Position numbers and translations under genes: made by a program
The notes under the pieces: generated by a model
Told to the model about the DNA's origin: nothing
Databases searched by the model: none
Seen by the model: only the letters and a program-made list of their open reading frames with translations
Part shown: piece after piece, positions 44,654 through 64,000 of the stretch
Numbering within the stretch: the stretch's first letter is position 1
Layout of the letters: each line of letters starts with the position of its first letter
NCBI GenBank assembly: GCA_015146655.1
Contig: VKHL01000118.1
Span: forward strand, 25,559 to 89,558
Reading direction: 5' to 3'
Length of the DNA: 64,000 bases
Source of the DNA: Ochromonas danica
Taxonomy: Eukaryota; Sar; Chrysophyceae; Chromulinales; Chromulinaceae

Positions 44654-46155
44654 TTATAATTTCCCACTAAACAATGTAAACGGTAGGTTATCCGAAGGTT
44701 GCTTGTTTCGTCTATAAAGAGTAGCAAAATCCCAATGAATGCTATCAATTCCCATGGATGGTCCCATAACATGAACGCGCTCAAAATACACGCGGCTAAA
44801 TTTACGATCTGGCATAGAGAACTCCGCTGGATAGGGTTTGAAAACGTAGAAATCCCGTAATTTGACAAGATTCTTTATTGACAAAGGAACAGGACCAATA
44901 AGATAATTTTCGTGTAACAGCAAGCTTTCCAAGTTTTTGAGTTGACCTATTCGATCAGGAATACAGCCTCTAAACTTATTCGAAGACAAATTCAACAACT
45001 CCAGTCGACCTAATAGACAGAGTTCATCTGGAAGTTCACCTTCCAACTCATTGGCATGCAAGTAAAGAAGTCTCAACCTTTTCCATTGACCAATAGAAGG
45101 TGTTAAAGTGCCTTTTAGTTGATTATGCTGCATCATAAGACGCTCGAGGCGACTGCAAGCCATCAAAGCATCTAATCCACCTGTCAACCTAAATTAGAAA
45201 CCATCTCATTCAGTCACTATCTAAGCATTGAAAGAAAGAGATTTTTCTACCTGTTCTGAGAGAGATTAAGTGTTCTCAAGATAGATAGTGATGAGAACGT
45301 TGATGGGATATCTCCCTCAAGCGCATTATTTGCCACTTTTAACTCTTGTAATCTATTCAGACATCCAATGGAAGGAGGCAAGCACCCTGTAAAGAAATTA
45401 CTAGAGAGATCAAGCTTTTCTAGCAAAACTAGCGAAGCAAAGACATCAGGGATACTCCCAGAGAGTTCATTATAGGATAAATTCAAAGTTATTAAGCTGG
45501 TTAGTTTGCTCAACATAGTCTCGTTGAGACCACCACTGAGCAGATTAGCTGACAGATCGATCATTTTCACCACAGTCAAGGCTTCTAAACTTAACGGTAT
45601 AGTACCATCAATAAGATTAAAGCTAGCAGTAAAAATCTCTAATTCATTTAGATGACCTAAATAAGATGGTAGACTTCCTCGTGCTCCATTATTATCGAAT
45701 TGAATGCTTTTGACTGGAACAAAGAGAAACTTTCTTTCTCCTGAATAATCCACTTCTTCAATCTTCTCAATCTTGATACCATCATATAATCCAGCAGATA
45801 TTTCAAATGGTTCAATTTCATCTCTTGCTGGTGTCTTTGATTGACCAATCCATCCAAATCGATGAACCCAAACAAAACCATCCATTTGCAGAAAAAGAGC
45901 ACGAAGTACTTTCTTATGCTTTTCAAAGACATCTACAGAAGGTTCGTATATGATAGAAGCTAAAGCTTTGAGTTTATCTTTACGTGTTAGAATCTCGAAA
46001 AACCATAATGAGGTTTCATCTTTGTTTTCATCAATGGTATTTGATTGCTCATACTTCCTTTTCATCTTCTTCTCGAAGCATTCCAACTCGACTAATAGCT
46101 GACGAATAATAGTAGGATAGGTTTGATAAATACTAAGGTGGTCTTTCTCTTTCAT
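44654..46155 (-). CDS. plant-type leucine-rich-repeat protein
   Basis: Exon 1 is 45251-46155 and exon 2 is 44654-45188 (62-base intron), giving 479 residues. About 160 residues without a recognised fold lead into some ten LRRs of the plant-extracellular type (LxxLxLxxNxLxGxIPxxxxxL): for example SLITLNLSYNELSGSIP, LEKLDLSSNFFTGCLPPSIG and LELLNLSSNKFRGCIPDRIG. No signal sequence, membrane segment or kinase domain is present, so it is probably intracellular. The role would be protein binding. Confidence 0.85.
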
Positions 46156-46267
46156 ATTCAGCTAATGTCATAACTACAATTATGATTTCGATCATGGACG
46201 TTTTGTCAGTAGTGGGCGAATTAGTCTATTACATAATATTAATACAAATTGCATGACCACACCACTC

Positions 46268-48375
46268 CCAGTGACCTCCAAAAATCCAGACACGCCAGAT
46301 ATGCGAACACCAACCGAAAACCAACGGTTTTTTACATTCTTTTTCAGAGTTTTCAAAGAGCAATTTCTTTGTTTTCCTGCGTTCTCATACAAAAAGACCA
46401 TTATCATTGAATTCCTCTCGATGAGACGAATCGAATGATATATAATATTACCAGGTAATGTTGAACAGTGAATGAGCAATAGCTGAAAATGTCGAATTGG
46501 TTGACAATTTCATGGCTCTGAATCTCTCATAGGTTTCCCTTTCTTCTCGTTCACCAACCTATGATCCCAAGCAACCAGCACAGAAGGACACAGGTAATAA
46601 GACTAGATCCATGTCTAATCGAACGCAACTATGAAATTGATAACTACTTTGTTGATGTTTTTAATTGTACTTAGATTTACTGAAATGGCTACCTCACAAA
46701 TGGAAGGGAGTTTGGCAGACGAGCTGTCCCTTTTCGTGCTGCGGTTTGTTTTTCATTAGGTAAGAAGTTGGGAACCAGCGTATCTGCACCGCCTTGAGTC
46801 GTTTTGGCCTCTAAGTTTTGTTTCTTCCCAGTTGGCTCTTGTCCGCGATCTTCTTGCCGTTCCTTCTTCAGTTGTTGGGTATCAAGACCCCTCCTTGTTC
46901 ACCAAGACTGCTCCTTGGTGAGGGTGAACGTTTTGAGCTTTGGGGCTTTCCTGCTGTCATTTGAGGGCTCGATGTTGATCACTCCCAATACGTCACAGTC
47001 CTCCTCGGCGGCTTCCCCTTTCGTTCCATACAAGGAGATTACATCAAGTGAGCGATGATCTTCTAACGTGCTGAACTCATCTAATGCAAGTTAAATTCTG
47101 CTTTTAGACATGGTCTGCCATAAGCTGGGAGCATATTGACCAGTTTCAAGATAGCCTTCCTGGATGATTTTGGAGGTAAGCGTTTGTTGAACTCCTGCGA
47201 CAATTTTCTGTAAACCATCGATCAGTGTCGCTTTTCGCATCCTTGGTAGGGTCGAATGGTTCTCGCTGAGTTTGAGCTATCTTTTCGTTGTGATAAGGCC
47301 TTCTGAGCCTTCGATTGAAGACAGGGCCTTTTTCGCCGATCTGAAGAAAGGACTCGCATCAAATGCTTCACAAATCGCAATGTAGGATGCTGGAGTCTTT
47401 CCAAGATCGATTAAACCTTCCAGAGTTGCTTTGCCATTGATTTTTTTATGGAAAATCTCGATCTGTTGCAGATTGTATGTGGCGTCCATGCAGATTCCAA
47501 TAATCTCTAATAAAACAGAGTTTTGAATATTAAATTGCATCTAGACCATCAAGATCCTTTTTCTTAACTTTCATTCATATATAACCCTCATCTAGACGAC
47601 AAATGGGAACACAATAGCCTCAGAAGACCATTCATAACACTCAGCATGGTAGCAACGAGTGGGCTTGTCCATAACCATCTAATCTAGCCCCTCTGCTAAG
47701 ATCTTGCACCTTACATGCTTCGTACCCATTCTTATTCAACATAGAATCAACGCTGACGAAGACAGGAGGAGCTGGAAAGCCGGCAGCACAATGAAAATGG
47801 TACAGGTTCATGGCACAGTCCAGTCCAGCCTCTTCCTCTCAAATCGTACAGAACTCGCGTTTGCGAATAGATATTCGCCGACAAACTTGACCAACCATCT
47901 TTTTATGAATGTTAGACAAACCCTCCCTGTTGAAGAGAGGAGGAAGACAGCCTCTTTCATGAAATTGATCGATTGTCGCTTCTTCCAATTCTCCGTTCTT
48001 TCTGTTCCATCCTCCCAAGGTGCCTTTCTTTTAATGCCAGACCTCACAAAACTGACCCATGGAAATCCCACTAGTTATTCACATCTGAACGATTCGCTAT
48101 TTTGTTATCTGATGTCCTCGGTATCTAGTTCAGGTCACCGAAACGAGTGAGTCGGTCCAAGGGCTCCAAGATGGAATTCGACCAAAATAATGCATCGATT
48201 CAGAATTTTCTTTCGTTACAACAAAGATATAGAAAATAATTAATGAACTGCTTAAAATTCGTGCAAATAACAGTTAAGGATCAACAACAAAAATGCTATT
48301 GAAGAGAATTTGATTTTGATGATGTTCTGGTTCTGTTCGCATATCTGGCGTGTCTGGATTTTTGGAGGTCACTGG
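46268..48375. mobile_element. 2.1-kb TIR DNA transposon relic (family A, long copy)
   Basis: The element begins CCAGTGACCTCC and ends GGAGGTCACTGG. The first 42 bases (46268-46309) and last 42 bases (48334-48375) are perfect inverted repeats. Both flanks read ACTC (46264-46267 and 48376-48379), a putative 4-base target duplication. A 72-base subterminal block (46323-46394) is shared almost exactly with the MITE at 60596-60911, and the right subterminal part (48188-48330) is also similar. The interior carries broken coding pieces on the minus strand, so this is a decayed copy. Confidence 0.9.
46899..48071 (-). pseudogene. decayed coding remnants inside the TIR element, possible transposase
   Basis: Minus-strand pieces in different frames have protein-like composition but are split by stops and shifts. 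One (about 47640-47815) reads YHFHCAAGFPAPPVFVSVDS. A second (47277-47540) starts with ATG and contains ASPFFRSAKKALSSIEGSEG. A third (46899 to about 47240) contains LTSKIIQEGYLETGQYAP and has an in-frame stop. Their order and flavour recall DDE-type transposases (catalytic core, then C-terminal segment), but no catalytic residue could be assigned. This is a guess based on context. Confidence 0.4.
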
Positions 48376-48738
48376 ACTCTGTTTTTGAATTTCATTTGCC
48401 GTGTACAAGTATCAACAGCGTAAGCATGTGTCTAGAGCGAGCTCTCAATTAACATGCAGAAAATAGTTTTGAGTGATATGGTGAGAAGTAATATATATCT
48501 TGTTAAATAAGTATATTCTGGAGCATCTCTTTCTCAAGGTTACAATGCACAAATTATAGCTTGTGAGGTTATTCATCTCTGGTGGTTAGACATTTGATAT
48601 GACGACATATCAGACAGCGATGGCGAATCTTTACACCAATCAATTTAAACCATAGGCATACCACCCAACTATTGCTTATGCCTTTGAGTACTCCAAACCA
48701 CTTGTACTCACAGCAAGTCATCCAAAGCTACACAATTC

Positions 48739-49618
48739 TCAATAGCAAAATCTATTTTAAAAATGAACAACGGCGAGTCAACACTTGTTGAAAGTAGACA
48801 TGAACAAGCAATTTCCGGCTTCACTAACCTGTCCGATTTCTTCTTGGACCTCATGTTAAGCAATTCCTCTCGACTCATAGAATTATTCGTGCTTTCTGAA
48901 ATAATCTTATATCCACCAAACGCTCCACCTTTCTTCACTCGATAGTTGAATTTGGTTCCACCTTCAGAAGCATAGGTACCAAATGCAGATTCTTCTGTCT
49001 TGTGTTGTCGAGAAACTTCCTGGCGAGTTTTCTCCTCTTCTCCAACTTCATCCTTAGGAGCTTTGATATACCTTTATAAGACAAGTAATCACAGTTAGAT
49101 AACCATAGTAAAAAAAATTACAGGGAAGAGTGTAGATACCGGAATGTGGTTGATGATATGAGGTCAGTGGAAAAGGGGGAAGAGATACTGATACTGACAT
49201 TGGATAGAACCATACGGACTATCTTAGTCTCTTCTTGAAGTGTAGTAGGATGAATAATAATGATAGCATCACCCACAGAGAGGTCATTCATAAAATGTGT
49301 GTCATGACCATGCACTGTTGTTCCACTTGTAGTAATACGTCCACTACCGTTACGAACTACCACTTCTTCCTCTATTGACTGATTCAAAGAATCAATCACA
49401 GGGATATCTTCACAATGACCACTAGGATTGTTACGACTTGTCGTGTCTGTGGTTTTCTTGGGAACTAAAGGCCTACAGTAAGTATCAAATAAATGAGAGA
49501 AAGTCAGTATGATACAACCAAAATATAGAAAATACAATGAGTATCCATATAAATACCCTTTCTTTGAATCTCCTTTGAATTTAAGCTTTCCTTTCACAAC
49601 TTTATAAGCATCACTCAT
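48739..49618 (-). CDS. FAM32/FRG1-like small basic protein
   Basis: Four exons: 49557-49618, 49140-49472, 48829-49071 and 48739-48751, giving 216 residues. The N-terminus (YKVVKGKLKFKG, then Lys-rich) resembles FAM32A and FRG1 starts. The C-terminus (MRSKKKSDRFCY) resembles the FRG1 end. The middle has a beta-rich segment of the type GRITTSGTTVHGHDTHF...LSVGDAIII. The last coding exon is only 13 bases (FCY and stop) and was found by splicing. The protein may be nuclear or nucleolar; the family link is tentative. Confidence 0.6.
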
Positions 49619-49823
49619 AGTTAATTAATGAATTGGAAATAGACTGACGGGTGTGATGTGAGCAAAGGAAAATGCGAGTAATAAAGCTGAAATTAATGGT
49701 TTTAGTAGTTGGAATGGTCTGTTTCAGTTTTCTTCGATGAGAACAGTTTTAGTTATCATTAATTAGTCCTATCATAACTTTTCAATCATAAGCTGGGGGA
49801 GATAAAAGGATAAGTTAGACTAG

Positions 49824-50774
49824 ATGTCATCTTTTCTTCATATTATCATCTTTGTCAATATTCTTGTGATATTGCATCAGACAGCTGTCTCTCACTCTCA
49901 GACTGTCTCTTACACTGCCACAGGGCGTTGGGAGGAAGAAACAAATCCACACTATCCTTGGAAGTGTCAAAACTTCCTCTGTTTAGGTGCTAACAAGACT
50001 TGGATTCCTAATAATCCTGAGTTTGTCTTCTATAACAATGAAACAGCTTGTCAGGCACTATTAGACCGAGGCATTTCTTTGATTAACTTCTATGGTGATA
50101 GTTATCAACGTCAACTTTATGCTGCTATGCTCATTACTCTGAATGGTGACTTTCAATATGGATCTCTTAGTCAGCAAAGTAAGGATTCAACTTGTTCCTA
50201 TCATCGACAGTTCTATGAGAAGAAATGTGGTGTTCGCCAACTCAATCATCAAGGGTTTGTTTGTGGAGGGAAGATACTTCTGGATCCAATTCTTACGGGT
50301 ATCGACAATTTGAATAATTGCTTAGGTAGGAATGGAAGTTTGTCTCTTCTAACATTTGGTAATCATCGATTATCGCCACCTCGTTATGGTGTTAACAATG
50401 CCACCGCATATGCTCAATTCTATCGAAATGGATTGTGTAAGCAAGTGAATGAAAATAACAGAAAGATTAGTGGATCATATCACAATCCTTGTTCTATATG
50501 GTGGGTTTCCACGCACTTTCGTAGAGTTGGCTATTTTCCAGATGAAAAAGAGGATGTTGTTATGGACTATAACCTTGGAATGAGAAGGTTCTTTGATTCA
50601 AAGGCTTGTGGAAATATCAATTATGTTGATGTCTACAATATGACCAGAGAGTTAGTAAAAGAACATTGGGAAGAATCACAGTCCATGACTTATGATAATG
50701 TTCATTGGGGAATGGAGGTGAACTTGATGAAAGCCCAGATTGTTCTCAATGCCATTCTAAGATCGCCAAAATAG
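49824..50774 (+). CDS. secreted PC-esterase/SGNH protein (TBL/Cas1-like)
   Basis: A single-exon gene of 316 residues. Residues 1-25 are a signal sequence. The mature part starts near GRWEEETNPHYPWKCQNF and has INFYGDSYQRQLYAAM, the GDSxxRQ catalytic block of PC-esterases such as plant TBL proteins and fungal Cas1. Near the end, MTYDNVHWGMEVN supplies the D-x-x-H pair. These enzymes O-acetylate cell-surface polysaccharides in the Golgi. Several Cys pairs fit disulfides. Confidence 0.8.
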   Translation: MSSFLHIIIFVNILVILHQTAVSHSQTVSYTATGRWEEETNPHYPWKCQNFLCLGANKTWIPNNPEFVFYNNETACQALLDRGISLINFYGDSYQRQLYAAMLITLNGDFQYGSLSQQSKDSTCSYHRQFYEKKCGVRQLNHQGFVCGGKILLDPILTGIDNLNNCLGRNGSLSLLTFGNHRLSPPRYGVNNATAYAQFYRNGLCKQVNENNRKISGSYHNPCSIWWVSTHFRRVGYFPDEKEDVVMDYNLGMRRFFDSKACGNINYVDVYNMTRELVKEHWEESQSMTYDNVHWGMEVNLMKAQIVLNAILRSPK

Positions 50775-50970
50775 GTATAAGGAATTTTGCTAGCTAGATT
50801 TGTTATGGAGATATGTTGTTATTGTCTTGTTTGCAGACATTAAGGTTAAAGTTGGTCGATCGTATGAATAATAAGTCGAATGTTGACTACATGCTTTATT
50901 GGTCTTTCAAGGACAATAATATGCTAGAGGGTAGTGACTAACTTGCTATCATGCTATATAGCTTCATGAA

Positions 50971-51606
50971 TTAGATTTGACTAAGCAGCTCATTAGACAA
51001 AGAGCAGGTTAAATCGTTGTCATCGTCATGTTCGATATTGAGGACTCTGATTACCCCATCGACCACATATGCGCTGAAGCGCTTCATGCGCTGGCCCGCA
51101 AGTCCCCAATACTCAGAAAGATCCAGCTGAAGACCTAAAGCATTGGTCAACTGTCCATGAACATCAGCAAGGATACGGATTTTTCCACGAGCATTGCTGG
51201 CATCTGCCCAAGCAGCTGTCACATAAGGATCATTGATGGTGACACACACAATCTCATCCACTCCCTTCGCCTTGAACTTCTCGTAGTCGGCCACATAGCC
51301 AGGCAGATGGGTTTTGCTGCATCCAGGAGTAAAGGCACCTGAAGAACAAATGACACCGTTTCAAGTCAAGCGGTACAGTTTTCGCAAGAGATTACATTAA
51401 TCTCACCTGGTAAACCAAAGAGAATCACCTTTTTCCCAGCAAACACAGACTCGGTAGTCACTTTGTTCGCTGAGTTATCTTCAAGGAGAATCAAGTTTCC
51501 TGAAAGCAGCATTCCAATCTTGGATTATCAAAGAACTTTTGGAAAGCAATGAAAGGAATGGAAGACGATACATACCAGGGATCTCAGTACCAACAGTGGC
51601 CGTCAT
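50971..51606 (-). CDS. type-II peroxiredoxin (Prx5-like), copy A
   Basis: Three exons: 51576-51606, 51407-51499 and 50971-51338, giving 163 residues. The peroxidatic Cys lies in GAFTPGCSKTHLPGYV, with the Thr and Pro neighbours typical of Prx5/type-II enzymes. A second Cys lies in EIVCVTINDPYV. The enzyme reduces peroxides with thioredoxin or glutaredoxin. No presequence is present, so it is probably cytosolic. Intron positions match copy B exactly (phase 1 at both). A near-match of the GTTAACTTCAC motif (GTTAACTTAAC) is at 51679-51689, 73 bases upstream. Confidence 0.95.
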
Positions 51607-51955
51607 TGTTGTTGATTGTTTGTGTGGAAATGAAGGCCAAGGCGAAATTCTGAGAAGGACAAGGATATTCCATCTCCCGTTAACTTAACAAGACACTCGC
51701 TGCGCGCTGGTTATGATTGAGCTTTTGGCATTGGGCAATGAAACATTTTGCGATGATGCAAGCAAACCTTTCCACAAAAATACAAGAAAGTGGCTAAATA
51801 CACCATGAAAAGCCAAACGGTCAGAAAAATAATGCTTAGTTAAGAGGACAGCGATTGTTGTCCTTAAGCGGACACAATAGAAATGTGCGTGTTGACTAAC
51901 TCGCAGCAGTCAATCAAAAATTGATTGACACCAACACACCAAACCAACACAAACA
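51607..51955. promoter_or_regulatory. region between peroxiredoxin copies
   Basis: A 349-base gap that holds the copy A promoter and the 3' end of copy B. GTTAACTTAAC lies at 51679-51689. No other element was seen. Confidence 0.4.
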
Positions 51956-52587
51956 TTAAATCTGGCTGAGCAACTCGTTAGACAAAGAGCAGGTCAATCC
52001 AGCACCCTCAGGCTCGATGTTCAGGATTTTGATCTCGCCATCGACCACATAAGCACTGAAACGCTTCATGCGCTCTCCAGTGACTCCAAAAGGACCGCTA
52101 AGATCCAGCTGAAGGCCCAAAGCATTGGTCAACTGAGCATGAGCATCAGCAAGGATTCGGACTTTCCCCTGGGCATGGTTAACTTCTGCCCAAGCAGCTG
52201 TCACAAAAGGATCATTGATGGTGACACACACAATCTCATCCACTCCCTTCGCCTTGAACTTCTCGTAGTCGGCCACATAGCCAGGCAGATGGGTTTTGCT
52301 GCATCCAGGAGTAAAGGCACCTGAAGGGCAAGTGACACCGTTTCAAGTCAAGCAAGAGATTACAGTTTTCGCAAGAGATTACATTAATCTCACCTGGCAA
52401 ACCAAAGAGAATCACCTTCTTTCCAGCAAACACAGACTCGGTAGTCACTTTGTTCGCTGGAGAATCTTCAAGGAGAGTCAAGCCTCCTGAAAACAGAATT
52501 TCAGGTGAAAACAGAATTCGAAGAACATTCTGAAAGCAATGGAAAAGACAAGTACTTACCAGGGATCTTGGTACCGACAGTGGCCAT
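51956..52587 (-). CDS. type-II peroxiredoxin (Prx5-like), copy B
   Basis: Three exons: 52560-52587, 52394-52486 and 51956-52320, giving 161 residues. Sequence, intron positions and motifs parallel copy A, including GAFTPGCSKTHLPGYV. The copies differ mainly at the C-terminus and at scattered residues. It is a head-to-tail duplicate lying upstream of copy A on the same strand. Intron 2 sequences of both copies are still similar (AGTTTTCGCAAGAGATTACA), so the duplication is fairly recent or has been homogenised. Confidence 0.95.
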
Positions 52588-52746
52588 CTTACGAATCGAG
52601 TGAAAGTTAGTAAAGTGAGTGGATTTAGTTATGATAGTAGAAGATGCAAATCCAATTCGGAACATGATGATGATGGAGTGAGTGAACAAGATGTTCCTGA
52701 GAGGTTGTGGCACAGGGAGGAGCCAGCGGAACACCCACACGGGGAG

Positions 52747-52757
52747 GTTAACTTCAC
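52747..52757 (+). promoter_or_regulatory. GTTAACTTCAC motif upstream of peroxiredoxin B
   Basis: A perfect copy 160 bases upstream of the ATG at 52587. It is a single copy here, whereas DPY30 and the ABM gene each have pairs. Confidence 0.45.
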
Positions 52758-53201
52758 AGAATCAGTGCAAAGATGGGATTGAAGTTGGACCAACAGCAAG
52801 CAGTTGGTTGTTCTGATACCTAGCTACTGTGATTGATCAAGGTGACAAGGTCAAAGTACATACTTTATTATGATTTATGTTGGCTTTACTCTTTCCATAA
52901 CTCATTATTGATCTATTTGATTTCTTTGTTAATTGATATTTACGGTAAAGAAAGAAAAATGAAAATCAAAGAACATCTGGATATTTGGCCGGGAGTGTGG
53001 CCCCGCAGAGTGGAGAGGGATGTCAGCCCAGTGCCCCCGCGCATAATAACAATCGGATGGGAAAGCATGAGATGGACACGAACAGTTGAGACAAACATCC
53101 ATTAATTCACTTCTATGAAGATAGTCTAGTCTCCATTCGCTTGATTAGAAGAAGACGAAGAAGTAAAAGAGTAAGAGCAAGAGCAAGAGCAAGAGGAAGA
53201 G
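52758..53201. promoter_or_regulatory. divergent region, SNARE 5' side
   Basis: Together with 52588-52746 this makes a 614-base divergent gap between peroxiredoxin B and the SNARE gene. Just before the SNARE ATG is an AGAGCAAG repeat (53170-53195). No other feature was seen. Confidence 0.35.
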
Positions 53202-54740
53202 ATGGCTGATATAAGCTTTTGGTATGAAGAACTTCAAAAAGAAGTGGATGCCTATGGTCAACTTGTTGATCGTCTTCAAGGGCTTGTCAACAGTTCGAAT
53301 CTTAAAGCCTTAGAAATGGCTATTAAAGAATGTGATGCTAAAGCTGTTCGTGTACGTGAAGTACGTAAATCCTTTGGATTAGAAGTTCGTCTATTACGTG
53401 ATAAAACACAACGAAATAGTTTTAATAGTCAAGCTGCCGTCTATGATGATCGATTTAATGCCAAAGTGAAAGAATATGAAAGTGCTAAAGCACAAGCTAA
53501 TAAGAAAAGCTTATTAAAAGAATCAGCCACAACTTTTGGTTATTCAACAGAAGGGAAAGATAATGATACCTTATTAGGTGAAACACATAAAATTCAAGAT
53601 TTAACCTTTGAATCATTAGCACGTACACGTGCTATGATTGAAGCAAGTAAAGAAGTTGGAACAGCTACAGTAGAACAATTACATAGTCAAAAAGAACAGA
53701 TTAAAGATATTGAAGCTGAAGTTGATAAAATTGATAGTAATTTAGGACGTGCTGAATTTCTATTAAGGAATTTTACCAAAAGAATGGCTACAGATCGTAT
53801 TATACAAGCATTTACTGCTTTTAATATTGTAGTTATGGTATCTTTAATTCTCTATGTAGCTATCTCAGGGAAGTCATTAGTACAAAGTGGTAAATCCAGT
53901 AAATCTGTTGGACCTTCAAAAGATACAACCTATCAACCAACGATGCAACCAACTTTTAGTAACTATACTGTCAATCCTGCTTCAGTACCAACATTTCGAC
54001 CTACACCTCGACATCCTACAGTGAGGCCAGCTCTTACAAGAAGGCCTACACGATCACCTACAGCTAAACCATCTATATCAATGACGCCAACCTTTCAACC
54101 TACCACGCCTCTACCAAGTTACTCATTCAGTCCCACTGAAGCACCGACATTGTCTCCTACCCATTTACCTTCAACTGCAATACCCACATACACTCCCAGC
54201 AGTGCATTTCCTTCTACGATCCACCCTACTGAAGCACCAACTTTGTCTCAATCTCCTACCGTGGTACCCTCGCTATCCCCTTCTGTTACGCCGACCACAG
54301 CTTTTCCGACCGTATCTCCGAGTTATGCTCCAACATTGAACCCTTCACATTCCCCTACGGAAGCTCCGTCAGTCAGTCCATCTTCACTGTCACCGACTGT
54401 TGCGCCTTCGCAACCACCAACTGCCGTCCCTTCTATGGGACCTACGATCGCGCCTTCTATAGCACCGACTCTGTCCCCATCGACGGCTCCTACCATGGCC
54501 CCTTCACCGTCGCCGACGCCTTCTCCAACAATGGGACCGACCGAACGACCATCTTCTCCCAGTCCCACACAGCCGCCATCGCTTGTGCCGACTCTGTCCC
54601 CATCGACGGCTCCCACCATGGCCCCTTCACCGTCGCCGACGCCTTCTCCAACAATGGGACCGACCGAACGACCATCGATTGCTCCTTCTCCCAGTCCCAC
54701 ACAGCCGCCATCGCTTGTGCCTACATCTCCTCCAACATAA
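53202..54740 (+). CDS. NPSN-like Qb-SNARE with long Pro/Ser/Thr-rich extracytoplasmic tail
   Basis: A single-exon gene of 512 residues. Residues 1-130 are helical as in NPSN/Vti1-type N-domains. The SNARE motif runs from about 132 to 195 (SLARTRAMIEASKEVGTATVEQLHSQ, listed in part), with Gln163 as the probable zero-layer residue, and is followed by MATDRIIQAF and a membrane segment at 200-222. That order matches plant NPSN proteins, which end soon after the membrane segment. Here a further 290 residues of PTxxPS/PTxAPS repeats follow, which would lie in the lumen or outside the cell. The tail includes a duplicated block of about 120 bases (54470-54590 and 54592-54720). Confidence 0.82.
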   Translation: MADISFWYEELQKEVDAYGQLVDRLQGLVNSSNLKALEMAIKECDAKAVRVREVRKSFGLEVRLLRDKTQRNSFNSQAAVYDDRFNAKVKEYESAKAQANKKSLLKESATTFGYSTEGKDNDTLLGETHKIQDLTFESLARTRAMIEASKEVGTATVEQLHSQKEQIKDIEAEVDKIDSNLGRAEFLLRNFTKRMATDRIIQAFTAFNIVVMVSLILYVAISGKSLVQSGKSSKSVGPSKDTTYQPTMQPTFSNYTVNPASVPTFRPTPRHPTVRPALTRRPTRSPTAKPSISMTPTFQPTTPLPSYSFSPTEAPTLSPTHLPSTAIPTYTPSSAFPSTIHPTEAPTLSQSPTVVPSLSPSVTPTTAFPTVSPSYAPTLNPSHSPTEAPSVSPSSLSPTVAPSQPPTAVPSMGPTIAPSIAPTLSPSTAPTMAPSPSPTPSPTMGPTERPSSPSPTQPPSLVPTLSPSTAPTMAPSPSPTPSPTMGPTERPSIAPSPSPTQPPSLVPTSPPT

Positions 54741-55124
54741 GGTTCTCCTTGGTATGTTGAAGTGGGATATTGTATATAGTATATAATGTGTTGAACTCAA
54801 CGTTAGCTTGTAAGCACAACTCTCTAGATAAAACTTACGGCAACATTTCAAGCTACGGTAGTAACCCAAAGCCTTTGATGACGATAGTCAGTTTTGTTAA
54901 GTGCCACAAATGAACACCACCAAGCAGATTAACACTTGTTTACTATTATTATTATTATTATTCTTTCGCATTTTCTTCATGTTTCAGCGATGACTAGATA
55001 TGAAGAAATCCCTTATGTCAACAACTTTGTTCATGGCATGATTCTGTTGTTCTACTACGTAGTATGTAGTTCTAAATTGATAGTTTACCTTACATATTGC
55101 CTACAGTTAATCACTACAGCACAA
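54741..55124. other. convergent 3' region
   Basis: A 384-base gap between the SNARE gene (+) and AspRS (-). It holds a TTATTATTATT stretch (54943-54962). No gene was seen. Confidence 0.4.
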
Positions 55125-55994
55125 TTAAGGAGTGCAGCGATTGGGATCACGAGGAAACATGCTAGCTTTACGAACATTATCCAAGCCAAGATAGAGGAAG
55201 ACTACACGATCCAGACCAATCCCAGCTCCAGCATGAGGATAGATGCCATGACGGAAGGAGTCAATGTAGCTTCTCAACAAGTTTGGATCCATGCCTTTCT
55301 CTACAATCCTCTTCTCCAACATATCTGCATCATGACAGCGTTGAGCACCAGAGCAGATCTCTTGACCTCTCAAGAAAAGGTCATAGCTATTGGAGTAAGC
55401 AGGATGTGTAAGGTTAGGCATAGTATAGAAAGGACGAATGGCAGATGGATATTGATCAACAATATAGAAGTCTGCATTGTACTTCTCTTTGACAAGACCA
55501 CCTAAGACAAGCTCTGTAGCCGTGCTGAGATCATCGTAATCACCCACATCTTGCCCAGCAGCTCGTAACATGGCAATAGCTTCAGGCCAATGAATGATTA
55601 AAGGTTCCGCTGTGAAGCGTACAGGTTCACTTGGATATTGATTACGAACAACAGCCAATTCCTTAGCAAATCGAGTTTCTAATCCTTCGAAGATATGACG
55701 GAAAAGTCGATGAAGGACTAACCACACACAGCAACCAACCATTAATCAATAACTAGCGAAATTCTAACATAACCCCACCAGAAGACAACTAAAACAACTC
55801 ACCGCCTAATGTCTCAGAATAGTGACTTTGAATGGCCATCTCGAGATCTAACCCAGTGAACTCGCAGAGATGACGTCGTGTGAGAGATTTCTCAGCACGA
55901 AAGACGGGACCGATTTCAAACACTTTCCCCAAATCCGCTGAAATAGCCATTTGCTTATAAAGCTGAGGGCTTTGAGCTAGACAAGCAGGCTGAT

Positions 55995-56052
<58 letters not shown>

Positions 56053-57128
56053 CAGGCATAGGACAAACCATAAGAAGAAGACTCACACAAGAGGGAGGGA
56101 GGTAGTCTACATAAAGAAAAACTAACCTGTCCAAAGTAATCAGTTCGAAACACTTCTGATCCACCTTCACTTTCTCCAGAAATCAACTTGGGTGTATTAA
56201 TCTCAATAAAGTCTTCATTTAATAATGCATCACGGAAAAGAAAAGAAATAGCTGATCTTAATCTCATAATCGCATTATTAGCAGGAACACGTAAATCTAA
56301 CCAACGGTTATTTAACCGTGTATCTGATGCTACACCTGAGAGAGGACGATCTGATCCTTGTGATAAGGCAATTTCTTCTTCAGATCTAGCAGCATCTTCT
56401 AATAGGAAAGGTAATTGTACTGGTGCACGTGAAACAACATAAACTTGTTCCATTTGTATTTCAACTTGTTTCTGACTACATCCTTTCACTTCTGCTGGTA
56501 CAACTTTACCATAAATATCAACAATGGATTCTAAAGTTAATCCACCAAGAAATTTCAATAAAGCCTTGGAATTTTCTAATTGTGTCTTATCTTTGAAATG
56601 ACATGCTTGTACAGTATGAAATGGTCCATCACGTAAAACAAGAAAACAAGCATTTCCTTTAGCACGTAGACTAGTTAATCGACCACGTAACCAGACATGT
56701 TGACCTAGGTTATGAGGATGATGAAGAGTATCAATAGAGGCAAAAACTTTTTGATCTACTCCTTGTGAGGCAATAAGTTCATAATCACCAAAATGAAGAT
56801 TATTACTACTCCCTTCTACTAGAGGTGGTGTTGAGGGAATAGTAAAATAGTCAATTTTAGATGATGTGGAAAGTGTTTCAGGAGACTCTTGTTGTGAAAG
56901 TGCATGAAGTGAGAAAGGTCGTCGTATAGGATGAAAGTTCATCATGACGACACGAAGAGGATGAGAAGCAGAAGAAGTCTTACATCTCCTCAAAGAAGGA
57001 GAAAAAGAAAGAGTGACTCTAGTAAAGACCATAACAAAACAGATAATAGAGAAAGTTAAAGGCAAGAGTCGAGGACTGCGAGGCAGAGAATGACAGCAGA
57101 AGAACTTGTTGTTGTTGTTGTTGTTCAT
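55125..57128 (-). CDS. aspartyl-tRNA synthetase, eukaryotic type with N-terminal extension
   Basis: Three exons: 56127-57128, 55803-55989 and 55125-55717, giving 593 residues. An anticodon-binding OB-fold ([24 protein letters not shown]) is followed by class II motif 1 ([17 protein letters not shown]), motif 2 ([21 protein letters not shown]) and motif 3 ([22 protein letters not shown]), ending [11 protein letters not shown]. It charges tRNA-Asp with aspartate. The first 60 residues are a hydrophobic stretch ending [10 protein letters not shown], then Ser/Arg-rich, which recalls the bipartite plastid targeting signals of stramenopile algae (signal peptide then a Phe at the cleavage site). Later Met residues could also start a cytosolic form. 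Intron 1 has a (GT)n tract on the coding strand. Confidence 0.94.
55998..56051 (-). repeat. (GT)n microsatellite in AspRS intron 1
   Basis: 54 bases of CA on the plus strand, that is GT on the coding strand, just before the acceptor of the first intron. Confidence 0.97.
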
Positions 57129-57614
57129 CTCATCAAATGAGCTGCAGAAGTGCTGGGTGGAGGAGATAGAAAAGTCGTCTTTTGAAATAGTCGTTATTGA
57201 CCTATCTCAAGAAAAGAAATAGAAGAGTTTTTCAAAATGCTCCACTATAACACCATTTTCATATGATAAACATCTCCAGTAACTAAATTACAAAGATTGT
57301 ACAAAGATGGAGTGTTGAAAAGACTGAAAAGATCCCCGCGTTTGTTTGTTCCGTGGCAACTTGTTTAGAAAACCCATCAACAAGGAATAGTAGCAAACTC
57401 TTTCCAGCAATGTATGCGTAGGGGATAAAAAAAAGACATATATCTCATATATGGTTAGGTATTAATACAGAAGAAGAAGTGAGCAATGTGCTAACTTCAA
57501 TTGGTAGTCATTTAACCTCGCCTACATAACACAAGCAGTTACATCCGAAGCATACTACAATAGAATCCGTCGTTCCAAGAAAGGTCAACGTATGTACAAA
57601 CCCGACACCCCCAG
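57129..57614. other. intergenic region
   Basis: A 486-base gap between the AspRS start and the PSGQPS gene 1 stop. AT-rich and without recognised repeats. It includes the AspRS promoter. Confidence 0.35.
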
Positions 57615-60452
57615 TTACATCACGATAGACGCTTTATTGCAGGCCACACCATGGAAGCCTGGAAAGCATTTACACGTCCCTGTCTCGTAATCACATACTC
57701 CTCTACCTGAACAATCTCTCCCTGACTCGTCACCTAGACCGCCCAGTGGATCTGGTCGAGAAGGACATTCCTATACCGTATGATGATCATCATCATTCAA
57801 GGGGATAAGCTTCACATATCCTATCAAAAGAAGACATGTATGTCGGTTGTCTTACCCTCAGAGAACAGTCAGGCCCACGAAACCCTACATCGCAAGCACA
57901 TCCCCAAATTTTCATCGCATCCCACGGAGTTTCATATACACGACCTGCTCGTTCAGCCAATGTTCTCATCGGAAGACATAATCCTCGACCATTGCAGTCC
58001 TATCAACACATGAAAACCAAGACAAGGTAAACCAATCAGTCCATAACAAGCATGTAAATGATGATATCATCTCCCTACATTAAAGCATCGTAGCCTCTGG
58101 CAAGCCATCCCTTCAAACGGAGCCCAACAAATGCACTCTCTACAACAACCCAAATAGTACCATCAAACATGCTGTAAGTATCGAAACATTCTTTTCAGCC
58201 CATCAATGCAAGAGATCGCTTTACCCCGTGTCTCGATCACATTCTCCTCGATTGGAGCATTCCACCCAAGGATGGATATCATTGTTTCTCACGAGCACCT
58301 CAGCTGACCAGGCATAGCCTCTAACAAATACAAGTCCATCAACAGGATTAGTATATCAATACAATAGTCACTCAATATCACTCTCGACATCAACACCAGC
58401 ATTCGCTTGCTAGCTGCTTACTTACTTTGGACAAGCGCGCAAAGAACAATCTGCTCCTGTCCAAACTGCTTCACCATTCAAATCCGTGTAACAAGTACAT
58501 TTGTCGCCGGGAGCTTCGCAGCGACCATGCCCGTTGCAGCCATTTTCACAGTGCATTCGATTAGCACTATGATAGCGCCTTTTATCAAACACATCTTGAT
58601 AAGCCTCTCGGATAAAGGAAGGAGCTGAAGTAGGGTTGGAGGACGGTTGGCTGGAAGGTTGGCTGGAAGGCTGAGCAGAGGGTTGACCTGAGGGTTGTCC
58701 AGTCGGGCGAGAAGAAGGTTGACCTGAAGGCTGGCCTGAAGGCTGACTGGTGGGCTGTCCAGAGGGTTGAGCAGAAGGCTGTCCGCTGGGTTGTCCACTG
58801 GGTTGCCCAGACGGTTGACCTGATGGTTGCATGGAGGGTTGACCTGACGGTTGACCGCTGGGTACCCCTGTAGGTTGGCCTGACGGTTGAGTAGATGGTT
58901 GACTTGTAGGTTGTCCAGATGGTTGAGTAGATGGCTGTCCTGAGGGTTGTCCAGAAGGTTGACCCGTAGGCTGGCCAGATGGTTGTCCGCTTGGCTGACT
59001 TGATGGCTGTCCGGAGGGTTGACTTGTAGGCTGACCTGAAGGTTGACCTGATGGTTGACTCGAGGGTTGCCCACTTGGCTGACTGCTTGGTTGGCCACTT
59101 GGTTGACCCGAAGGTGTGCCTGTTGGTTGACCAGAAGGTTGGGAAGAAGGTTGGCCACTAGGTCGCCCACTTGGCTGGCTGGAAGGTTGACCTGATGGTT
59201 GCCCGCTGGGTTGACCACTAGGTTGGCCTGTTGGCTGTCCGCTAGGTTGGCCGCTAGGCTGCCCAGAAGGTTGACCGGAGGGCTGTCCAGAGGGTTGTCC
59301 GGATGGTTGTCCGGATGGTTGACCAGAAGGCTGAGATGATGGCTGCCCCGAAGGTCTGCCTGACGGCTGCCCTGTAGGTTGACCCGAGGGTTGACCAGAG
59401 GGTTGTCCTGATGGACGGCCTGAAGGTTGACTGGAAGGCTGAGCGGATGGCTGAGCAGAAGGCTGGCCCGATGGTTGGCCAGAAGGTTGTGAACTTGGTT
59501 GACCACTCGGCTGACCACTGGGCTGACCAGAAGGTTGGCTGCTGGGCTGACCAGAAGGTTGACCGGAAGGCTGACCTGAAGGTCGGCCACTAGGTTGACC
59601 CGATGGTTGACCTGATGGCTGACCGCTCGGTCGACCAGAAGGTTGGCTGGAAGGTTGACCACTCGGCTGACCGCTTGGCTTGCCGCTCGGTTGACCCGAG
59701 GGTTGACCACTAGGCTGCCCAGAAGGCTGGCCTGAAGGCTTCCCAGAAGGCTGGCCAGATGGCTGACCACTCGGCTGATTACTTGGCTGACCGCTCGGCT
59801 GGCCCGAAGGCTGACCTGAGGGCTGACCTGAAGGTTCACCTGTTGGTTGACTCGATGGTTTGGAACTCGGTTGTGCAGAAGGAGACCCAGATGGCTGGCT
59901 CGACGGTTGAGAACTGGGCTGGCCCGATGGACGACCAGATGGTTGGCCGGAAGGATGGCTGGAAGGCTGGCCCGATGGTTGCCCGCTGGGACGGGAAGAT
60001 GGTTGGCCACTTGGTTCAGAAGAAGGTTGAGACGAGGGCTGTCCACTGGGTGATGCGGAAGGTTGGGAAGAAGGATGTGAACTGGGCTGACGGGACGGTT
60101 GCCCAGTGGGACTCGAAGTAGGTTGGCCTGAGGGTCTTGAACTGGGTTGAGAAGAAGGCTGAGTGGAGGGCGACGATGTTGGACGTACAATAGGCTGAGC
60201 TGTGGGCTGGGAAGAAGGTTGGCTACTGGGCTTCTTGGAAGGTTGCGCACTTGGCTGAGACGAAGGTCGGCTGCTGGGTTTCTTGGAAGGTTGTGCACTC
60301 GGATGAGACGAAGGTTGGCCACTGGGTTTTTTGGAAGGCTGAGACGTAGGTTGGCTAGTTGGTTTCATGCTGAGAGAGGCATCAATAGTATATCTGTTGA
60401 ACAAAATAGAGATCGTGAATATTAGAGCAAAGGAAATGAATTTAACATTCAT
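57615..60452 (-). CDS. secreted PSGQPS-repeat protein with EGF-like C-terminus, copy 1
   Basis: Five exons: 58426-60452, 58225-58320, 58079-58139, 57856-57999 and 57615-57770, giving 827 residues. A signal sequence (residues 1-26) is followed by about 580 residues of PSxQPS/PSGQPS repeats, in which Gly-Gln-Pro-Ser units alternate with SSQP, TGQP and KKPS. The end has Cys-rich EGF/tenascin-like modules: [50 protein letters not shown] and [22 protein letters not shown] (parts). Such proteins are thought to be surface or wall glycoproteins in stramenopiles. The four small exons were found by following Cys spacing and phase. Confidence 0.88.
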
Positions 60453-60595
60453 CTGAGATTGACTTTCAAGTAGAATTGATTATTTAATATCTTTGGGTGT
60501 TGTTGTGCGCAAATGGCCGATCGTTTCGTCTTCCAAATACCGCTTTTTCCGAGTTATAATTCATCTTTGTGGGCATGAAACGCTTTTGACAAGAT
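60453..60595. promoter_or_regulatory. promoter region of PSGQPS copy 1
   Basis: A 143-base stretch between the gene start and the MITE. No motif was recognised. Confidence 0.4.
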
Positions 60596-60911
60596 CCAGA
60601 GACGTCAAAAAACACAAACGCACCAGAAAACTCAAACGCTGACAGAAACATAACGGCTTTTTACATTCTTTTTCAGAGTTTTCAAAGAGCAATTTCTTTG
60701 TTTTCCTGCGTTCTCATACAAAATAGTGCATCAATTCAGAAATTTCCTTTTTTACATCAAAGTTAAAGCAGATGTTTAATGAAGTGCTTGAAAATTCGTG
60801 CAAATAACAGTCAAGGATCAGCAACAATATGTGATTGATGAGAATTTGATTTTGATGCTATTTCTGTCAGCGTTTGAGTTTCTGGTGCGTTTGTGTTTTT
60901 TGACGCTCTGG
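60596..60911. mobile_element. 316-bp MITE of the same TIR family
   Basis: It begins CCAGAGACGTC and ends GACGCTCTGG. The inverted repeats are 53 bases on the left (60596-60648) and 51 on the right (60861-60911), identical except for two one-base gaps. Both flanks are AGAT (60592-60595 and 60912-60915), a 4-base target duplication. A 72-base block at 60652-60723 matches 46323-46394 with one difference. The element has no coding capacity and is a non-autonomous member. Confidence 0.93.
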
Positions 60912-61156
60912 AGATCTCGAAAAATTGAAACAATGACAAAAAGTTCAAAGTTTAATATCAATGTAATCATCTGTGTGCAACCAAAAAGTATCAAACAACA
61001 CCACCACCAAGTAAACATAAAAATGCACAAGGTTTGAAGGTCATCACGATAGCATACTGCAGCAAAACAAACAATCTAGAGAAAACATTATAGAGTAGAA
61101 CACGAAGAATAGAACAATCAGAAATAGCAAGCAAGCATCGCAAAACTCAATCGAAG
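60912..61156. other. intergenic region between PSGQPS genes
   Basis: A 245-base stretch between the MITE and the stop of PSGQPS copy 2. It is AT-rich with no open frame of note and no resemblance to the flank of copy 1. Confidence 0.4.
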
Positions 61157-64000
61157 CTATATCATGATGGACACTTTATTGCAGGCCACACCATGGAAGC
61201 CTGGAAAGCATTTACACGTCCCTGTCTCGTAATCACATACTCCTCTACCTGAACAATCTCTCCCTGACTCGTCACCTAGACCGCCCAGTGGATCTGGTCG
61301 AGAAGGACATTCCTATACCGTATGATGATCATCATCATTCAAGGGGATAAGCTTCACATATCCTATCAAAAGAAGACATGTATGTCGGTTGTCTTACCCT
61401 CAGAGAACAGTCAGGCCCACGAAACCCTACATCGCAAGCACATCCCCAAATTTTCATCGCATCCCACGGAGTTTCATATACACGACCTGCTCGTTCAGCC
61501 AATGTTCTCATCGGAAGACATAATCCTCGACCATTGCAGTCCTATCAACACATGAAAACCAAGACAAGGTAAACCAATCAGTCCATAACAAGCATGTAAA
61601 TGATGATATCATCTCCCTACATTAAAGCATCGTAGCCTCTGGCAAGCCATCCCTTCAAACGGAGCCCAACAAATGCACTCTCTACAACAACCCAAATAGT
61701 ACCATCAAACATGCTGTAAGTATCGAAACATTCTTTTCAGCCCATCAATGCAAGAGATCGCTTTACCCCGTGTCTCGATCACATTCTCCTCGATTGGAGC
61801 ATTCCACCCAAGGATGGATATCATTGTTTCTCACGAGCACCTCAGCTGACCAGGCATAGCCTCTAACAAATACAAGTCCATCAACAGGATTAGTATATCA
61901 ATACAATAGTCACTCAATATCACTCTCGACATCAACACCAGCATTCGCTTGCTAGCTGCTTACTTACTTTGGACAAGCGCGCAAAGAACAATCTGCTCCT
62001 GTCCAAACTGCTTCACCATTCAAATCCGTGTAACAAGTACATTTGTCGCCGGGAGCTTCGCAGCGACCATGCCCGTTGCAGCCATTTTCACAGTGCATTC
62101 GATTAGCACTATGATAGCGCCTTTTATCAAACACATCTTGATAAGCCTCTCGGATAAAGGAAGGAGCTGAAGTAGGGTTGGAGGACGGTTGGCTGGAAGG
62201 TTGGCTGGAAGGCTGAGCAGAGGGTTGACCTGAGGGTTGTCCAGTCGGGCGAGAAGAAGGTTGACCTGAAGGCTGGCCTGAAGGCTGACTGGTGGGCTGT
62301 CCAGAGGGTTGAGCAGAAGGCTGTCCGCTGGGTTGTCCACTGGGTTGTCCTGAGGGTTGCCCGGACGGTTGTCCAGATGGTATCCCCGTTGGTTGCCCTG
62401 ACGGTTGACTTGAGGGCTGCCCAGAAGGCTTTGCTGACGGTTGTCCACTGGGCTGGCCACTAGGCTGACTAGATGGCTGACTAGATGGCAAAGATGTCGG
62501 TTGACCAGACGGCTGACCACTGGGCTGACTAGATGGCTGTCCACTCGGTTGGCATGAAGGCTGTCCACTAGGCTGACCGCTAGGAAGGCTACTGGGTTGT
62601 CCTGATGGTTGGTCTGAAGGTTGGCCAGAAGGCTGTCCTGATGGTCGGTTGGAAGGCTGCCCTGAAGGTTGGCCAGAGGGTTGTCCTGATGGACAACCAG
62701 AAGGTTGACTGGACGGCTGCAGGGAAGGCTGACCCGATGGCTGACCCGATGGTTGGCCAGAAGGTTGTGAACTTGGTTGACCAGAAGGCTGCCCTGAAGG
62801 TTGGCCACTTGGCTGACTCGATGGCTGACTCGATGGCTGACCAGAAGGCAGTCCACTCGGTTGTCCTGAAGGTTGACTCGAAGGTTGACCCGAGGGTTGT
62901 CCTGATGGACGACCAGAAGGTTGTGAACTAGGATGACTTGAAGGTTGACTACTTGGCTTCCCGCTCGGTTGACCCGAGGGTTGACCAGAAGGTTGGCCGG
63001 AAGGCTGACCTGAAGGTCCGCCACTTGGTTGGCCCGATGGTTGACCTGATGGCTGACCGCTCGGTCGACCAGAAGGCTGGCTGGAAGGTTGACCACTCGG
63101 CTGACCACTGGGCTGACCAGAAGGTTGGCTGCTGGGCTGACCAGAAGGTTGACCGGAAGGCTGACCTGAAGGTCGGCCACTAGGTTGACCCGATGGTTGA
63201 CCTGATGGCTGACCGCTCGGTCGACCAGAAGGTTGGCTGGAAGGTTGACCACTCGGCTGACCGCTTGGCTTGCCGCTCGGTTGACCCGAGGGTTGACCAC
63301 TAGGCTGCCCAGAAGGCTGGCCTGAAGGCTTCCCAGAAGGCTGGCCAGATGGCTGACCACTCGGCTGATTACTTGGCTGACCGCTCGGCTGGCCCGAAGG
63401 CTGACCTGAGGGCTGACCTGAAGGTTCACCTGTTGGTTGACTCGATGGTTTGGAACTCGGTTGTGCAGAAGGAGACCCAGATGGCTGGCTCGACGGTTGA
63501 GAACTGGGCTGGCCCGATGGACGACCAGATGGTTGGCCGGAAGGATGGCTGGAAGGCTGGCCCGATGGTTGCCCGCTGGGACGGGAAGATGGTTGGCCAC
63601 TTGGTTCAGAAGAAGGTTGAGACGAGGGCTGTCCACTGGGTGATGCGGAAGGTTGGGAAGAAGGATGTGAACTGGGCTGACGGGACGGTTGCCCAGTGGG
63701 ACTCGAAGTAGGTTGGCCTGAGGGTCTTGAACTGGGTTGAGAAGAAGGCTGAGTGGAGGGCGACGATGTTGGACGTAAAATAGGCTGAGCTGTAGGCTGG
63801 GAAGAAGGTTGCCCAGATGGTGTAGCGCTCGGTTGAGAAGATGGTTTGGAAGAAGGTTGGGAGCTCGGTTCAGACGAAGGCTGGCCACTTGGACTGGAGG
63901 TGGGTTGCTGGGAAGGCCTTGCACTCGGTTGAGAAGATGGTTTGGAAGAAGGTTGGGAGCTCGGTTCAGACGAAGGCTGGCCACTTGGACTGGAGGTGGG
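61157..64000 (-). CDS. secreted PSGQPS-repeat protein, copy 2 (5' end beyond window)
   Basis: Same exon plan as copy 1, shifted by 3,542 bases: 61968 to >64000, 61767-61862, 61621-61681, 61398-61541 and 61157-61312. The last four exons and their introns are essentially identical to copy 1. The repeat region stays open in the correct frame to the window edge, so the start and signal sequence are not seen. Only the last residues differ (CNKVSIMI against CNKASIVM). Near the edge a 96-base unit is duplicated (63825-63920 and 63921-64000). Confidence 0.88.
63825..64000 (-). repeat. 96-bp coding tandem repeat in PSGQPS copy 2
   Basis: The stretch GCGCTCGGTTGAGAAGATGG and what follows recurs 96 bases further on as GCACTCGGTTGAGAAGATGG with few changes. 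It keeps the reading frame (32 codons). Confidence 0.8.

Follow-up and report, generated by a model that had tools for sequence, protein, structure and literature searches.

A low-copy family of CCAG...CTGG inverted-repeat elements with 4-base target duplications in Ochromonas danica

Sola transposases are of the DDD type. Target duplications of 4 bp are also made by the Sailor (DD82E) elements, which lie within the IS630-Tc1-mariner group and have been recorded in 23 stramenopile species; they duplicate TATA, carry terminal inverted repeats (TIRs), mostly of 23-57 bp, in which two motifs are conserved, and usually have GT or CC as their first two bases, and the group to which they belong has a GRPR-type motif (PMC8533490). 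Sola itself is one of the superfamilies in Repbase (PMC4455052), and the Sola2 elements of social amoebae combine TIRs of 12-21 bp with AT-rich 4-bp duplications of the form AWWT, namely ATAT, AAAT and ATTT (PMC3627910). Pogo elements duplicate TA, TAA or TAAA (PMC7386202), piggyBac and Kolobok duplicate TTAA (PMC9587614), and Ginger1 and Ginger2 have TGTNR ends and the targets CCGG/CCGT or RTATAY (PMC2836005). In Galileo, a member of the P superfamily, subfamilies differ chiefly in their TIRs, and it has been suggested that copies bearing such subfamily-specific TIRs undergo exchange (PMC3573991). In the part of the open-access literature surveyed, a family with CCAG...CTGG ends was not found.

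The window, by which we mean the whole 64-kb stretch of DNA analysed here, holds two elements with such ends. These are a long copy, A (46268-48375; CCAGTGACC...GGTCACTGG), and a miniature copy of 316 bp, B (60596-60911; CCAGAGACG...GCTCTGG), and both had been recognized in the original prediction and were read again. As that prediction had it, A is bounded by 42-base TIRs, which repeat comparison placed at 46268-46309 (plus strand, starting CCAG) and 48334-48375 (minus strand, terminating CTGG) and which are identical at 42/42 positions, and by an ACTC duplication that could be read directly on both sides (46264-46267 and 48376-48379). The AGAT duplication claimed for B was likewise found (60592-60595 and 60912-60915). 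Its TIRs, given as about 51 bases, measure 53 bases on the left (60596-60648) and 51 on the right (60861-60911); they are 96% alike with small gaps, and their outer 42 bases agree in 40/44 columns. A subterminal block common to both elements had been put at 72 bases, which is about right: over the 71 bases compared, positions 46325-46395 of A (plus strand) are identical to 60654-60724 of B at 69. Rfam over 45000-62000 and ARAGORN across the whole window gave no match.

The genome-wide search was carried out in the same assembly (31.2 Mb in 337 contigs) and returned at least 48 matches with B as the query and at least 63 with A, one copy often giving several. Six loci have ends of the A type (C18, C55, C90, C118 and C229, and C209 with two mismatches); ends of the B type were matched four times, at C48, at C118 and at both ends of the C10 copy. 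An identical 4-mer flanks nine of the 11 copies in which both boundaries are readable: ACTC for A, AGAT for both B and L028, AATT for L029, GTGT for L024, GTTT for L027, ATTT for L032, AAGT for L026 and AAAC for L031. For L026, which terminates CTAG instead of CTGG, and for L031, whose right edge was placed where AAAC recurs, the boundary was chosen post hoc once the repeat had been seen, and leaving both out gives 7/9. L031 (1053-1184, on C55) retains only 132 bp from the left end of A and lies between AAAC copies, as though everything to the right had been removed precisely as far as the duplication. The expectation of consistent 4-base, non-TTAA duplications is borne out in nine copies, A and B included, and fails in L017 and L018, both of B's subfamily, whose flanks show no target duplication. 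The flanks of these two copies are similar to each other, with AGTC on one side and CTCTCCC or CCTCCC on the other. We excluded L021 from the count because its right end is rearranged; AGAT does stand to its left and right, a few bases beyond the ends. Paired ends were not found at ten further loci, and L019, L020 and L033 have a single end only. Two random 4-mers of the window would agree by chance with a probability of 0.00486 per copy. All nine duplicated 4-mers fit RNNY, a pattern that has a frequency of 0.227 in the window but that was seen after the fact and in a set where AGAT occurs twice.

Near-identical copies stand between different duplications. L029 (AATT) is 99.2% identical to A over its length, and in two pieces each L032 (ATTT) reaches 99.0 and 99.6% and L027 (GTTT) 98.1 and 99.8%. 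Structures of this kind could in principle be chance inverted repeats or segmental duplications with no transposon behind them, a view with which the low copy number (A-type ends at only six places) and the searches for an empty site would agree: with the flanks of A, B and L024 no empty site was found in the assembly, the flanks of B once joined, and likewise those of L024, matching only their own loci and the left flank of A being single-copy and confined to its own locus, and ten joined sites searched across the retrieved loci gave no join spanning the site. However, copies that are 98-100% alike stop at the same CCAG/CTGG, and outside this point both the 4-mers and the neighbouring bases differ, so that we regard this explanation as vanishingly improbable. 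A and B look like genuine members of a low-copy family of cut-and-paste TIR DNA transposons, and the family looks to have moved fairly recently.

The TIRs define subfamilies in an unexpected manner. Over the outer 42 bases, the two ends of a copy agree perfectly not only in A but also in L024, L027 and L032 (42/42 each), and nearly so in L029 (41/42) and L017 (40/42), with lower values in L028 (37/47), L018 (33/43) and L026 (32/45). The match within a copy is therefore at least 90% in 7/10 copies, B included, and 71-79% in three. When A, L024, L026 and L017 are compared with one another, the TIRs are 57-66% alike and the interiors 86-92%; given the inner divergence, the excess in the TIRs has a binomial probability of about 5e-6 for A and L024 and 3e-6 for A and L026. 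The TIRs of the subfamilies are far more diverged than the interiors, yet they are mostly matched within a copy. B belongs to the L017 subfamily. Its inner parts are 99.2% identical to L017 over 236 bases (TIRs 91%) and 89.2% identical to A over 212 bases (TIRs 67%), and its parent was therefore an L017-type element. Galileo resembles this family in having subfamilies that differ chiefly in their TIRs; the likeness is limited to TIR dynamics, as Galileo belongs to a separate superfamily and has long repetitive TIRs.

The ends also show an internal periodicity. When five subfamily ends were pooled, the best self-offset was 17 bases with a mean match of 0.63, a value that 0/5,000 shuffles reached; with single ends, the best offset was reached by shuffles in 30% of cases for A and in 1-9% for the four others. 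The pattern suggests two putative transposase-binding iterons of 17 bp at each end, which in the left end of A would lie at 46278-46294 and 46295-46311, the second extending 2 bases beyond the TIR. Because the subfamilies share descent, the periodicity may represent one old duplication.

Decayed coding pieces had been noted in the long copy, and they correspond to a broken transposase gene on the minus strand of A. We read an N-terminal HTH piece with four stops (47827-48105), a middle piece, YHFHCAAGFPAPPV (47671-47832), that abuts the HTH piece directly, and a C-terminal part that includes CEAFDASPFFRSAKK (46968-47675) and whose frame has six stop codons between 46960 and 47690. Other copies add to this picture. 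The C76 copy has an open frame of 302 residues with the HTH, the GRP motif and NWDATQF, and in the C179 copy AAGFPAPPV and QAFDVSPFFRSAKKAL can be read and YHFHCTAGFPAPPV and CQAFDVSPFFRSAKKAL are present. In both A and C179 the HTH piece joins the AAGFPAPPV piece directly and the NWDATQF block is thus absent; this block, present in C76, is by its motif probably the first catalytic Asp block of the enzyme. The GRP motif behind the first HTH is invariant in 4/4 aligned pieces of other copies and is replaced by GCLPP in A, and a second HTH seems to flank it. No position was found in the fragments for the middle catalytic Asp. IGICMDAT in A was considered for this role and dropped, the C179 and C190 copies reading otherwise there. 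Among the best candidates scored in the assembly searches none is an intact transposase gene. The original prediction had suggested A as the autonomous parent of the miniature element; with the probable first catalytic Asp block missing, many stops in the gene and B nearer to L017, this reading of A is rejected.

Profile searches gave little for these fragments, in which an HTH and two Asp motifs can be read. They matched no DDE family in Pfam, where a composite also matched 0 families, and only one match passed a cut-off, that of the HTH to IS66 TnpA of NCBIfam (8e-8, spanning 39 residues). Pfam, PHROGs and NCBIfam otherwise gave the HTH weak or short hits to HTH_32 (0.089), the phrog_151 transposase (0.0026) and IS3 (0.0066), and hits at chance level. 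There was no credible match among solved structures, and the predicted structure of one C-terminal piece from the window had a mean pLDDT of 33.7 and was set aside. In the search for relatives beyond this genome, two scans of viral contigs matched 90 and 3 pattern stretches and one scan of prokaryote genomes matched 57, none of which was confirmed; phage records gave no match, or one tail-protein match with E = 1 in two records of one phage.

The HTH stretch of the gene has equal stop counts (2 TGA, 1 TAG and 1 TAA) and an equal score in C118, C229, C18 and C90, with C18 and C229 showing 100% identity to A in this part. Since these stops are shared by copies with different duplications, the copies must have spread after the gene was broken. 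Relative to A, internal sequence of 478-1,788 bp is missing from five of the eight aligned copies: 946 bp in L027, 478 in L032, 1,295 in L028, and 684 in L017 and 1,788 in B, the last two being measured against A and not against their parent. The deletion junctions contain filler of 1, 6 and 3 bp in L027, L032 and L028, and overlaps of 3 and 5 bp in L017 and B. Incomplete repair of the excision gap yields such internal deletions in cut-and-paste elements, and those seen here fit abortive gap repair.

Taken as a whole, these data lead us to propose the following mechanism. A DDE-type transposase, of which only broken genes were found in the assembly, would bind the tandem 17-bp iterons in the TIRs and excise the element at CCAG/CTGG. 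Insertion would follow cuts in the two target strands offset by 4 bp, with a slight preference for RNNY, and gap filling by the host would then create the 4-base duplications. Excision breaks that are incompletely repaired could shrink copies from about 2.1 kb to the 316 bp of B. The copies would be mobilised by transposase supplied in trans, because they kept spreading after their own gene was dead. We estimate at roughly 90% the probability that A and B are non-autonomous elements moved by cut and paste in this manner, a reading that implies no particular superfamily.

As to the superfamily, one possibility is a divergent member of IS630-Tc1-mariner, on the pogo or Sailor side, whose target has shifted from TA/TATA to RNNY. 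By their motifs the remnants seem to resemble pogo/Tc1-like enzymes: in addition to the GRP motif conserved outside A, NWDATQ is followed by CQAFDVSPFFRSAKK in the order found, by eye, in DDE_1 proteins, and hhalign aligned the last motif with the QPLD motif that the DDE_1 proteins of this genome carry, although that match was not significant (probability 0.15%, E 0.4). The order of the motifs together with the GRP motif would make us lean towards this side. Sailor offers a further parallel within the group, with its 4-bp duplications, CC as one of its two usual starts, TIRs of similar length and presence in stramenopiles. However, A itself has lost the GRP motif, the remnants match no Pfam DDE family, and the nine duplications include no TATA and no 4-mer starting with TA. 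The last catalytic residue of Sailor is E and here it is apparently D, judging from one motif; when the Sailor DD78-111E domain was compared, the last motif here had Asp and the middle Asp had no position. The family differs from pogo in its 4-bp duplications with 0/9 starting TA and in the absence of a DDE_1 match. We regard a placement in IS630-Tc1-mariner as a possibility somewhat short of even. The genome has seven DDE_1 (PF03184, pogo-like) matches of its own, at C125, C197, C24, C121, C2, C176 and C290, five of them above the Pfam cut-off, and 0/7 lie on copies of the CCAG...CTGG family.

A distant membership of Sola was also considered. By published description, Sola2 shares 4-bp duplications and the possession of TIRs with the present family, and two duplications of the Sola2 form, AATT and ATTT, occur here. 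But AWWT accounts for just 2/9 duplications, which instead follow RNNY, and the TIRs are 42-53 bp long with CCAG ends, as opposed to 12-21 bp in those Sola2 elements of social amoebae, so that we think a Sola origin rather unlikely. PiggyBac and Kolobok were rejected with TTAA found in 0/9 duplications, as were Ginger1 and Ginger2, the ends here being CCAG and none of the nine duplications being CCGG, CCGT or ACGG. It would be bolder to propose a new eukaryotic superfamily of DNA transposons, characterized by CCAG...CTGG ends, 4-bp RNNY duplications, a transposase matching no known DDE profile and TIRs in which both ends are replaced together, more quickly than the interior changes, perhaps following shifts in the binding specificity of the enzyme; we consider this quite improbable. 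The CCAG...CTGG elements probably form a new family within a kind already known, the cut-and-paste TIR transposons.

If the family falls on the IS630-Tc1-mariner side it would be another lineage that abandoned TA targeting and would bear on the evolution of target choice; if it falls outside, it would be one addition to the few groups with 4-bp duplications. The diverged and mostly matched TIRs with two putative 17-bp iterons offer a natural set for testing how a transposase and its binding sites change together. In other respects this is an ordinary case, a single decayed low-copy family.

With regard to its surroundings, B lies between two look-alike reading frames on the minus strand (58422-60452 and 61964-64000), which are closely alike by eye, and is placed roughly 140 bases upstream of the former.
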